A stretch of 64,000 nt of DNA. Source: Clostridiales bacterium (lineage in GTDB: Bacteria; Bacillota; Clostridia; Lachnospirales; Lachnospiraceae). Below are positions 50,526 through 54,245 of the stretch, one piece after another (position 1 is the first letter of the stretch; each line of letters starts with the position of its first letter). The stretch is taken from contig JAJBVD010000078.1 of NCBI GenBank assembly GCA_020859985.1, positions 25,728-89,727 on the forward strand. Reading direction: 5' to 3'. The notes beneath the pieces are model-generated. The model did not search any database. It was not told where the DNA came from and saw only the letters and a list, made by a program, of their open reading frames with translations. Made by a program: the position numbers and the translations under genes.

Positions 50526-50790
50526 AAAATAACGGTTATATAAAGACAATCCCGGTGAGTGCCAGAGTGCATTTGCCGGGATTTTTACTTGAGCTTTTAT
50601 GCACACAGGCGCGTTCCCTTTTTCGCAAATGGCACTGGAAACAGGATTGAAATGATGATATAATGGCAAAAATGTTGATAGAGATTACATTTTTATATTC
50701 TAAAATGTTGATTTTAAGCATTAATTGTAAATAATTTCTGATGACAGGAAACGACTCACGCCGTTTTCTGTGATTGACCTGAGGTGTTTT
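50526..50790. other. Gap before the AAA/DUF4143 gene
   Basis: No gene. A possible weak promoter (TGGAAA, 17 bases, TATAAT ending at 50664). Sequence turns AT-rich from here to about 52.1 kb. Confidence 0.4.
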
Positions 50791-52098
50791 ATGCTGAAAA
50801 GAAAAGCGACAAAGGATATTAAAAACTGGCTCCATTCGAAGGATAAAAAATGTCTTATCGTACAGGGAGCCAGGCAGACCGGAAAAACATACATCATTGA
50901 ACAGTTTGCAAAAGAGAATTATGAGGAATTTGTTGAAATCAATTTTAAACAAATGCCCTCTGCTGCTGATATTTTTTCCGGTGATCTCACGGTGGATGCT
51001 ATGGTCATGGCCATGCGCTTCCGTTTCCCTGAGAAGAAAATCATTCCCGGAGAAACGATGATTTTTCTGGATGAAATTCAGGAGTGTCAGGAAGCGCTCA
51101 CCTCACTGAAGTTTTGGGCAATCGATAATCGCTTTGATGTGATTGCTTCAGGGTCGCTTCTGGGAATAGACTATAAACGTGCCTCGTCTTATCCGGTCGG
51201 CTATGTTGATTATCTGAAAATGTATGGACTTGATTTTGAGGAGTTCCTTTGGGGGATGGGGATTTCGGAGGATATGACAGGGAATTTTTGCAATTACCTG
51301 CACGCAGAGACTGTGATACCAGAGGCTGTCCATTCGCAGATGATGAATTATTACAGACAGTATATTGCAACAGGCGGTATGCCGGAAGCAGTACAAAAGT
51401 ATGTAAATACAAAGGATTTCAGGGACGTCGACAGGATACAGAGAAGTCTCCTGCAGGGATATCAGTATGACATAGCACATTATGCAACGGCAGAAGAAAA
51501 AGTAAAAGCAGAAAAATGTTACCTTTCTCTTGCAAAGCAGTTGTTGGATAAAGAAAACCACAAATTTCAATATAAAGAAGTGGAACATGGGGGCCGGGCA
51601 CAAAAATATTATTCAAGCGTTGAGTGGCTGCTTCGCGCAGATATGGTACATCTGTGCAAACTTGTGACAGATGTCAGATTTGATTTAGATGATTACGCAA
51701 GAGACGATTTTTTCAGGGCTTATACAACAGATTTATCATTATTGATGGCAATGAAGGACTTTTCGTTAAAACAGCATATTGTGGAAAACACCTTAGCAGG
51801 AAACTCAAAAGGGGGGATCTATGAATGTGCAATTGCAGATGCTCTGTATAAAAAAGGGTATCCGTTATATTTTTATAAAAATGAGACACTAAAAAAAGAA
51901 ATTGACGTCATAATCCAAAAAGATGGGAATGTGCTTCCTATTGAAGTCAAAAGCGGAAATACAAGGGCAGGTTCGCTCAAATCACTTATGAAAAATCATA
52001 AAGATATCTGCTTTGGATATAAGTTCGTTGATGGGAACACAGGAGTGAGCGAAGATGGTATCATTACGCTGCCGTTATATATGATTGCATTTATCTGA
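50791..52098 (+). CDS. AAA-family ATPase with DUF4143 nuclease-like domain
   Basis: From ATG 50791 (GAGGTG upstream) a 435-residue protein. The ATPase half has GARQTGKTYII (Walker A) and TMIFLDEIQECQEAL (Walker B). The C-terminal DUF4143 part ends in YFYKNETLKKEIDVIIQKDGNVLPIEVKSGN, a PD-(D/E)XK-like E-x-D...E-V-K pattern. These proteins are widespread and of unknown role, often in variable regions. Codon use is more AT-rich than the neighbours, which suggests recent gain. The ORF-track start lies outside the ribosome-site context. Confidence 0.85.
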   Translation: MLKRKATKDIKNWLHSKDKKCLIVQGARQTGKTYIIEQFAKENYEEFVEINFKQMPSAADIFSGDLTVDAMVMAMRFRFPEKKIIPGETMIFLDEIQECQEALTSLKFWAIDNRFDVIASGSLLGIDYKRASSYPVGYVDYLKMYGLDFEEFLWGMGISEDMTGNFCNYLHAETVIPEAVHSQMMNYYRQYIATGGMPEAVQKYVNTKDFRDVDRIQRSLLQGYQYDIAHYATAEEKVKAEKCYLSLAKQLLDKENHKFQYKEVEHGGRAQKYYSSVEWLLRADMVHLCKLVTDVRFDLDDYARDDFFRAYTTDLSLLMAMKDFSLKQHIVENTLAGNSKGGIYECAIADALYKKGYPLYFYKNETLKKEIDVIIQKDGNVLPIEVKSGNTRAGSLKSLMKNHKDICFGYKFVDGNTGVSEDGIITLPLYMIAFI

Positions 52099-52117
52099 CG
52101 AAAACAGGAGGAACTAC

Positions 52118-53569
52118 ATGGAACCATTGGTGAGTATCATTGTCCCGATTTACAATGCCGCGGACTACATCGGACGCTGTGTGGACAGCATCCGCAACCA
52201 GGAATATCAGAATCTGGAGATTTTGCTGGTCGACGATGGGAGCAGCGACGGCACGGCTGCAATTCTCGATGATTACGCCGGGAAGGATGCGCGAATCCGC
52301 ATCATTCATCAGGAGAACGCAGGCGTTTCTGCAAGCCGGAATCATGCACTGGAGCTTGCGCAGGGGGAATATGTACAGTTTGCGGACAGTGACGACTGGC
52401 TGACGCCGGACTCGACAAAGCTGCTGGTGCGGCCGGCGATAGAAAAGGACTGCGATCTGGTGATTGCGGATTTTTATCGTGTGAACGGCAAGCGCCTTTC
52501 ACAGAAGGGCGACATCGACGCGGACCATGTGATGGACCGCCGAGAATTTGCTTCTTATATGATTGAGAATCCGGCCGATTATTATTATGGTGTGCTTTGG
52601 AACAAGCTTTTCCGGCGCTCCATCATTGAGGAGCATCAGATCCGGATGGATGTCGAGCTTGACTGGTGCGAGGATTTTCTTTTCAATTTGGAGTATATCC
52701 GCTATGCGGAACGCCTTTATGCGGTGCAGGCGCCGGTCTATTATTATATGAAGCGAAAGGACAGCCTGGTCTCGCAGGGGGCGAGCATCAGCAACACGGT
52801 GCGGATGAAAAGTACCGTGTTCGATTATTACAATGCTTTTTACAGGGATGTCTATGAGGAAGATTATGCCGAGGTAAAGCAGAAGGTGCGCATGTTTCTG
52901 ATCAGCACGGCCATGGACGGGCTTGTTATGCCGACTGTTGTTCCGGGCAGCACCCGCCTCGGAAAGGAGCGGGTGAAACTGGCCGGGCAGTCTGTCAGTG
53001 ACACGCGCGGGGTGCTCGCTGACTTCTATTATCTGCGTAAATTGCTGGAGTATTACCTCGGACTGGGTGCGATGCTGAAAAAAATCACACTTGACGAGGC
53101 GCTGCTGCTTTTATTATTCGAAAACAACCGTCGGTTTGAGAGCCGCAAAGAGATCGCGGAGCTGACCGGGCTTAACGCGCAGAGAGTTTCCCGGGCGCTC
53201 TCCAGGCTGAAACGCGAAAAGCTTATCACCTATGAGACAGATGAGGAGGGCGGACTGGCTATCGAGGTACTGGAAAAAGCAGGGGAATATTTAAATGAGA
53301 TTGATCATGCGGTAGAGGAGTGCAGAAGAGTCTGTATGAAAGATTTTACCGGGGAAGAAGAGACTTGTGCGGAGGCGCTTATTTTAAAGGCGAATGAGAA
53401 TGTGCGTGTAAAGCTGGAGCAGGTGTCATTCCCGGCAGATCTGGAGTCTGACGATATCGCAAAAGGCAGCGCAAAGAGCCTGACGAAAAGCGGTACAAGC
53501 AACATGGGGAAGAGCAGCGGAAGAAGTGCTGCTGAAAAAACATCGGCCGAAGAGAAACACGGGAAGTAA
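52118..53569 (+). CDS. Family 2 glycosyltransferase fused to a C-terminal winged-helix domain
   Basis: A 483-residue protein from ATG 52118 (AGGAGG). Residues 1-230 are a GT-A glycosyltransferase: VSIIVPIYNAADYIGRC, LEILLVDDGSSDGT, QFADSDDWLTPDS (metal-binding DxD region), then a LDWCEDFLFNLEY acceptor segment. Residues about 325-400 look like a MarR-type winged helix: LDEALLLLLFENNRRFESRKEIAELTGLNAQRVSRALSRLKREKLI then a beta wing. The last 60 residues are polar (Ser/Lys). Joining a transferase with a DNA-binding type fold is unusual; the wing domain might instead bind protein. Follows the AAA gene by 19 bases. Confidence 0.8.
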   Translation: MEPLVSIIVPIYNAADYIGRCVDSIRNQEYQNLEILLVDDGSSDGTAAILDDYAGKDARIRIIHQENAGVSASRNHALELAQGEYVQFADSDDWLTPDSTKLLVRPAIEKDCDLVIADFYRVNGKRLSQKGDIDADHVMDRREFASYMIENPADYYYGVLWNKLFRRSIIEEHQIRMDVELDWCEDFLFNLEYIRYAERLYAVQAPVYYYMKRKDSLVSQGASISNTVRMKSTVFDYYNAFYRDVYEEDYAEVKQKVRMFLISTAMDGLVMPTVVPGSTRLGKERVKLAGQSVSDTRGVLADFYYLRKLLEYYLGLGAMLKKITLDEALLLLLFENNRRFESRKEIAELTGLNAQRVSRALSRLKREKLITYETDEEGGLAIEVLEKAGEYLNEIDHAVEECRRVCMKDFTGEEETCAEALILKANENVRVKLEQVSFPADLESDDIAKGSAKSLTKSGTSNMGKSSGRSAAEKTSAEEKHGK

Positions 53570-53576
53570 ATTTGTA

Positions 53577-53605
53577 TTGACACACGTATAAAATACGTGT
53601 AAAAT
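53577..53605 (+). promoter_or_regulatory. hicAB promoter
   Basis: Perfect TTGACA, 17 bases, TAAAAT, about 30 bases before the hicA start with AAGGGGAAGG between. Confidence 0.8.
53582..53600. promoter_or_regulatory. Candidate HicB operator
   Basis: Perfect palindrome ACACGTAT-AAA-ATACGTGT exactly filling the space between -35 and -10. Confidence 0.7.
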
Positions 53606-53633: not shown

Positions 53634-53816
53634 ATGAGGTATAGCGAACTGGAGAAGAAATTAAAGAAGGCGGGATGTAAGGTGCTGCGGGAAGGAGCGA
53701 ACCATTGTATATGGTATAGCCCGATAACAGATAAAGCGTTTCCGGTCAGCCGTCATAAGACAGAAGAAGTGCCTGCGGGAACATTGAAGTCGATCATGCA
53801 GGATGCGGGCTTGTAA
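53634..53816 (+). CDS. hicA: HicA-type mRNA interferase toxin
   Basis: A 60-residue dsRBD-like toxin: YSELEKKLKKAGCKVLREGANHCIWYSP, with the catalytic His in GANHCIWY, and VSRHKTEEVPAGTLKSIMQDAGL. HicA cuts mRNA on the ribosome or free. Toxin-first order with the antitoxin downstream is usual for hicAB. Catalytic residue intact, so likely active. Confidence 0.9.
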   Translation: MRYSELEKKLKKAGCKVLREGANHCIWYSPITDKAFPVSRHKTEEVPAGTLKSIMQDAGL

Positions 53817-53849
53817 AAATGACAGAAATAATGAAAGGAGGCTTTTATT

Positions 53850-54245
53850 ATGGCAAAATATGCATATCCGGCAGTTTTTACAGAGGAAGACAATGGATAC
53901 AGTATTTGCTTTCCGGATATAGAAGGCTGCTATACAAGTGCGGAAGACATAACGGAAGGAATTGCGATGGCGGAAGATGTATTGTGTCTGACATTGTACT
54001 GGCGGGAAAAAGAAGGCAGGGAAATTCCTGCGCCTTCTGGTGTGAACGATGTGGCTCACAAAGAAAGAGAGTTTGTCTCATTGGTTGCCTGTGATACGGA
54101 CTGGTATCGCAGATTTTACGACAGCAAATCAGTGAAGAAAACCCTTACTATTCCCAGTTGGCTAAATGACCTTGCAGAACGGAGCGGCATTAATTTTTCC
54201 GGTGTTCTGCAGGAGGCATTAAAGGCAGAGTTGAGGATAGGATAA
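53850..54245 (+). CDS. hicB: HicB-type antitoxin
   Basis: A 131-residue antitoxin. The N-terminal partially degraded RNase H fold (YPAVFTEEDNGYSICFPDIEGCYTSAEDITEGIAMAEDVLCL) neutralises HicA. The C-terminal LTIPSWLNDLAERSGINFSGVLQEALKAEL is a ribbon-helix-helix that should bind the operator palindrome 250 bases upstream. A good GAAAGGAGG site precedes the ATG. Confidence 0.9.
   Translation: MAKYAYPAVFTEEDNGYSICFPDIEGCYTSAEDITEGIAMAEDVLCLTLYWREKEGREIPAPSGVNDVAHKEREFVSLVACDTDWYRRFYDSKSVKKTLTIPSWLNDLAERSGINFSGVLQEALKAELRIG

Follow-up and report, generated by a model that had tools for sequence, protein, structure and literature searches.

What is a MarR-type winged helix doing at the end of a glycosyltransferase? 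The question is raised by a gene in a 64,000-nucleotide stretch of DNA from a Clostridiales bacterium (hereafter the window). An earlier note had proposed that this gene encodes a GT2 glycosyltransferase (GT) with a MarR-like domain that could link envelope sugar synthesis to gene control. The open reading frame is intact, with an ATG at 52118 and a stop codon at 53567-53569, and can be divided as follows.

52107-52113, + strand: ribosome-binding-site-like AGGAGGA upstream of the start codon (sequence)
52118-53569, + strand: whole open reading frame, GT2-linker-MarR-tail protein of 483 residues (sequence, profiles, relatives)
52118-52792, + strand: GT-A/GT2 catalytic domain, residues 1-225 (profile, motifs, fold)
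52793-52918, + strand: helical C-terminal part of the GT, residues ~226-267, where most unfused relatives end
52919-53008, + strand: linker, residues ~268-297 (low model confidence; fused-family motif)
53012-53428, + strand: predicted complete MarR domain, residues 299-437 (profile, AlphaFold model, fold search)
Within 53012-53428: predicted helices alpha1 (residues 299-320), alpha2 (325-336), alpha3 (343-350) and alpha4 (354-366), strands 370-374 and 380-384, and helices alpha5 (386-406) and alpha6 (412-437)
53237-53266, + strand: wing region, residues ~374-383, without the DRR-type arginine motif of stand-alone relatives (alignment)
53438-53566, + strand: Ser/Lys-rich tail, residues 441-483, disordered and weakly constrained or unconstrained (model, codon comparison)

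The two halves of the protein

To judge by its sequence, the N-terminal part of the reading frame is a GT2 glycosyltransferase with every catalytic motif. The Pfam profile Glycos_transf_2 matches residues 6-172 (1.5e-40; 139 bits against a cut-off of 23.3), and the signatures from which the earlier note had recognized a GT2 catalytic half, VDDGSSDGT and FADSDDW, are present at residues 38-46 and 88-94. DDGSxD (40-44), DSDD (90-93), NK (162-163) and a catalytic-base-type ED (185-186) are invariant or nearly so in the relatives compared (69 fused, 22 unfused). Sequence and fold searches identified CgT (5hea, a PDB entry entitled 'CgT structure in hexamer'), TarS, TarP, RmlT and K4CP as the closest solved GT2 structures. 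The best sequence or fold matches of the GT part include CgT/GalT1 (5hea), K4 chondroitin polymerase and E. coli PRK10073 (YibD/WaaH-type), all of which, unlike the window protein, are without a MarR domain; the window protein also misses the PRK10073 equivalog cut-off (127 versus 423 bits).

Profile searches and structure prediction confirmed the C-terminal domain as a complete MarR domain, running from alpha1 to alpha6, which is more than a winged HTH. Besides MarR profiles, related HTH profiles also hit the C-terminal third. The Pfam MarR_2 profile scores slightly below its gathering score with the whole protein (1.1e-5) but exceeds it with the isolated C-terminal part (2-3e-6), and is matched individually by 30 of 43 C-terminal parts from the fused family. 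A profile of these 43 parts matched the solved MarR proteins SlyA (3q5f, 1e-11) and 3bpv (4e-11). AlphaFold2 modelling of the isolated C-terminal part returned a winged-helix MarR fold and no other, ordered alpha1-alpha2-alpha3-alpha4-beta-beta-alpha5-alpha6 with a mean pLDDT of 92. The top Foldseek matches of this model are MarR-family proteins, and its best PDB matches include RovA, MarR and SlyA. The segment in which the winged-HTH pattern had been noticed, RKEIAELTGLNAQRVSRALSRLKREKLI, is located at residues 343-370. The MarR-like assignment made for residues 310-410 therefore holds but its extent does not: the domain covers residues ~299-437 and includes alpha1, alpha5 and alpha6, so that only its centre had been seen.

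The window domain has the alpha1-alpha6 topology of the MarR transcription factors (SlyA/RovA, 3q5f and 4aij; MTH313, 3bpx), comprising a winged helix and a dimerization bundle. It differs from them in being fused behind a glycosyltransferase and in having lost both the DRR-type wing motif and the fixed wing length. The dimerization helices alpha1, alpha5 and alpha6 are all present in the model, and alpha1 is strongly conserved. The linker contains a motif, P-G-[ST]-x-[KR]-L-G-x-E-R (residues 276-285 of the window protein), that is near-invariant in the fused family. The placement of the MarR domain in the full-length model is uncertain (pTM 0.56; linker pLDDT <50).

Distribution and origin of the fusion

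We found 59 loci in a genome scan, ~43 of them with an identical GT-linker-MarR layout at 43-97% identity. Among 299 Lachnospiraceae genomes, sampled at nearly one per genus, an orthologous GT is present in 42 and is fused to MarR in ~28 of these; the conservation that the earlier note had asked about is thus found in ~28 of 299 genera. One fused relative comes from another family of the same order, and a wider sample of the class contained, outside the window's family, only unfused GTs of ~280-315 residues. Phylogenetic analysis of the GT part puts the 69 non-identical fused sequences into one group of 70 with a single unfused member (SH-aLRT 99). This pattern, essentially one clade, indicates that the MarR domain was gained once and lost once later, and the tree of the MarR domain itself is compatible with a single origin (AU p = 0.60). 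The unfused member inside the clade (L140) has lost MarR and retained the GT, and there is no MarR remnant downstream of its GT.

Could the fusion be an artefact, either a lost stop codon between neighbouring genes or a chance winged-HTH-like helix pattern? Read-through fusions do happen in this GT subfamily, which has acquired other terminal domains (UDG, a small HTH and GNAT). However, the 69 non-identical fused sequences in one clade, the conserved linker motif and the confidently predicted fold speak against an accident of this kind. So do codon comparisons between close relatives, which indicate that the MarR part evolves under purifying selection: dN/dS is 0.02-0.11 for the GT and 0.05-0.25 for the MarR domain, and in the Ser/Lys-rich tail it is mostly 0.2-0.6, with one aberrant pair. 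Separate neighbouring orthologues, which the earlier note had named as evidence against a genuine fusion, were not found, since no relative examined encodes the two halves as adjacent genes. Nor does a GT of this subfamily lie within the ~6-kb flanks examined for 14 of the closest stand-alone MarR genes. Together, the clade, the selection, the linker motif and the fold leave an artefact with a negligible probability, and we consider it ruled out.

Three loci carry disrupted versions of the gene. In L042 (4745-6064) the MarR part is broken over two frames, with its C-terminal half in another frame from 5874 onward, through either a frameshift or an assembly error. L025 and L054 come from two contigs of a single assembly and share the gene between them, with the break near residue 233 and a stop codon close to the contig end; insertion of a repeat could be the cause.

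The other fusions of the subfamily are diverse and were gained separately. Orthologous GT2s are joined to a uracil-DNA-glycosylase-superfamily domain, presumably of the DNA-deoxyinosine glycosylase type, in L168 (1154-2536) and L169 (926-2515; Pfam UDG 2.9e-11 and 1.5e-7, respectively), and by sequence likeness also in L166 (1-1206), where the gene is cut by the contig end. This fusion has an origin separate from that of the MarR fusion. A different, short HTH-like tail ends the GT2 in L055 (4270-5700), L170 (1649-2821), L173 (1124-2254) and L056, with an HTH_23 match in the L170 tail of 0.008 only, and in L172 (611-1999) a GNAT acetyltransferase is fused to the N terminus. The UDG and small-HTH fusions would fit a GT2 that acts at or on DNA, or is DNA-bound, with MarR recruiting it to specific DNA and the other fusions reflecting a common nucleic-acid role. 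We regard this as improbable. Small stand-alone UDG genes are common in Lachnospiraceae (155 of 250 genomes), and UDG also occurs inside other long reading frames, so its fusion to the GT is weak evidence for a role at DNA; the UDG, HTH and GNAT fusions appear to show promiscuous fusion more than a common DNA role. Examples of such long reading frames are L186 (1768-3228) and L189 (2318-3691), in which a small UDG-type protein is combined with a second domain that resembles PgeF/YfiH.

Wing, recognition helix and upstream DNA

We compared 47 non-redundant fused MarR domains with 34 stand-alone Lachnospiraceae MarR proteins, the closest found. The latter are proteins of 146-175 residues (for example, L094, L098 and L146) that align with the fused domain from alpha1 through alpha6 but are free-standing and mostly have a canonical wing: the wing motif D[RHK][RK] is present in 28 of 34 stand-alone proteins and in 2 of 47 fused domains (Fisher p = 1e-13). 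The arginine of this motif is described as contacting the minor groove in MarR proteins generally (PMC2650471). Wing length between the bounding columns is 21 residues in all 34 stand-alone proteins and ranges from 15 to 59 in the fused set, where K/E-rich inserts are frequent. The wing of the window protein, KLITYETDEEGGLAIEVLE, is without the arginine motif, and Lys/Glu-rich low-complexity inserts of up to ~40 residues lie within the MarR wing in L024, L027 and L037-L049.

The pattern of conservation also differs between the two sets. Pairwise identity in the wing is 0.12 for fused and 0.59 for stand-alone domains, whereas in alpha1 it is 0.40 and 0.22, and Y304 is invariant when the domain is fused. 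Conservation has thus moved from the wing to the linker and alpha1 in the fused family. The recognition helix, alpha4, is retained (identity 0.32 versus 0.39) and is more basic in fused than in stand-alone domains (+2.7 versus +1.1 charges).

The DNA around the gene offers no obvious target for a repressor. Aligning the upstream regions of six close relatives revealed no shared operator or palindrome, only -35/-10-like hexamers. There is no conserved operon partner across the fused family. DUF308 and radical-SAM/SPASM genes upstream are common to the close clade only, and in other genera the neighbours encode MutL, DNA gyrase/topoisomerase IV subunit A, YjgF, PTS proteins, a GlgC-like nucleotidyltransferase, MatE, PLD or a histidine phosphatase, varying by genus.

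Within the window, an AAA_14/DUF4143 ATPase gene (50770-52098) separates the GT gene from a terminator-like hairpin (50548-50583). The relatives L011-L014 have the radical-SAM gene immediately upstream of the GT gene, and in L011 a comparable hairpin precedes a promoter-like site. The ATPase gene looks like an insertion that places the window GT behind a new gene. Downstream of the GT gene is a HicAB-like pair (53634-54245; HicB_lk_antitox 2.5e-10), in which a 60-residue reading frame looks HicA-like, with a near-consensus promoter-like site at 53577.

Because the wing motif is lost, the upstream DNA shares only promoter-like hexamers and the neighbours differ by genus, the fused MarR domain is unlikely to act as a classical operator-binding repressor. 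The proposed link between envelope sugar synthesis and gene control is accordingly weakened, all the more as one lineage dropped MarR and kept the GT. The recognition helix is nevertheless kept and basic, so alpha4 may still bind DNA or another polyanion. A bifunctional 'trigger enzyme' would exploit this by binding its own or an envelope promoter in a sequence-specific manner, with repression depending on whether the GT has UDP-sugar or acceptor bound. The full MarR fold, the conserved and basic recognition helix, purifying selection on the MarR part, the canonical DNA wings of its nearest stand-alone relatives and the Lys-rich wing inserts of some members, which could still contact DNA, would all suit such an enzyme. 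Given that the family as a whole has lost both the arginine motif and the fixed length of the wing, and that upstream regions and neighbour genes present neither a common block beyond the hexamers nor a conserved target, we think it possible but unlikely.

A probable role for the MarR domain within the enzyme

Structural relatives of the GT suggest another use for a C-terminal module. The wall-teichoic-acid GT2s TarS, TarP and RmlT have a GT-A catalytic domain homologous to that of the window protein, and TarS has a linker and a C-terminal oligomerization module in the same position as the MarR domain, although its module is immunoglobulin/CBM-like. The TarS module makes the trimer and has basic grooves, and without it activity remains but acceptor affinity and processivity fall (PMC5156392). 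We considered a teichoic-acid acceptor on the basis of the TarS/TarP likeness, but gene co-occurrence does not support it. Most carriers are without strong polyol-phosphate polymerase matches: strong Glyphos_transf matches occur in 6 of 28 carrier genomes, versus 13 of 28 (p = 0.09), and the window's own genome has two such genes. Polyol-phosphate wall teichoic acid is thus not supported as the general acceptor of the fused family.

Our preferred reading, to which we assign a probability of about 55%, is that the MarR fold has been repurposed and now serves an orphan cytoplasmic GT2 as a module for dimerization, acceptor binding or regulation. In an ancestor of many Lachnospiraceae, a GT2 of the CgT/TarS/TarP/chondroitin-synthase type would have gained a complete C-terminal MarR domain once, and the fused fold would then have ceased to work as a classical operator-binding repressor. 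The alpha1/alpha5/alpha6 bundle most likely dimerizes the enzyme, and the basic recognition helix may help to hold a polyanionic acceptor or a partner, or the domain may respond to a ligand. Without the piece that normally grips DNA, the MarR part is less likely to act as a gene switch than to keep the enzyme assembled or to control it. The retained basic alpha4 counts against this reading to the extent that it would also be expected of a DNA binder.

Alternatively, the MarR pocket may sense a small molecule, such as an aromatic acid or sugar intermediate, thereby controlling the GT allosterically with DNA uninvolved. MarR proteins are commonly ligand-responsive, and both the absence of the DNA wing motif and the concentration of conservation in alpha1 and the linker, beside the GT, are in keeping with a sensor. 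However, model confidence is low in the linker, which is probably flexible, and this argues against tight coupling of the two domains. We consider this reading rather improbable.

Other proteins also join an intact MarR domain to a metabolic enzyme. MarR-GNAT proteins combine it with a different enzyme, as does L102 (4615-6549), from the window's genus, in which an N-terminal MarR domain precedes a citrate synthase (MarR_2 4.9e-8; Citrate_synt 6.5e-117). Targeted full-text searches returned a single relevant match, the CA_C2195 family, and the GT-MarR fusion itself is seemingly undescribed. Like GT-MarR, CA_C2195, a polysaccharide-pathway protein, ends in a winged HTH, which has a distant MarR_2 match; unlike in GT-MarR, the domain is circularly permuted, joined to a peptidase-like enzyme and found within sugar operons (PMC4000134). 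Its authors proposed roles in substrate recognition and protein contacts (PMC4000134).

The joining of a GT2 to a full MarR domain, which became fixed a single time and persists in many genera of gut Lachnospiraceae, thus seems new to the literature. Annotation of these proteins either as 'MarR regulators' or as plain 'glycosyltransferase' would be misleading in both cases. With a wing that is lost and variable and an alpha1 that is more tightly conserved, the fused family constitutes a natural experiment on how a DNA-binding fold becomes part of an enzyme, and a simple test case for whether DNA binding survives.
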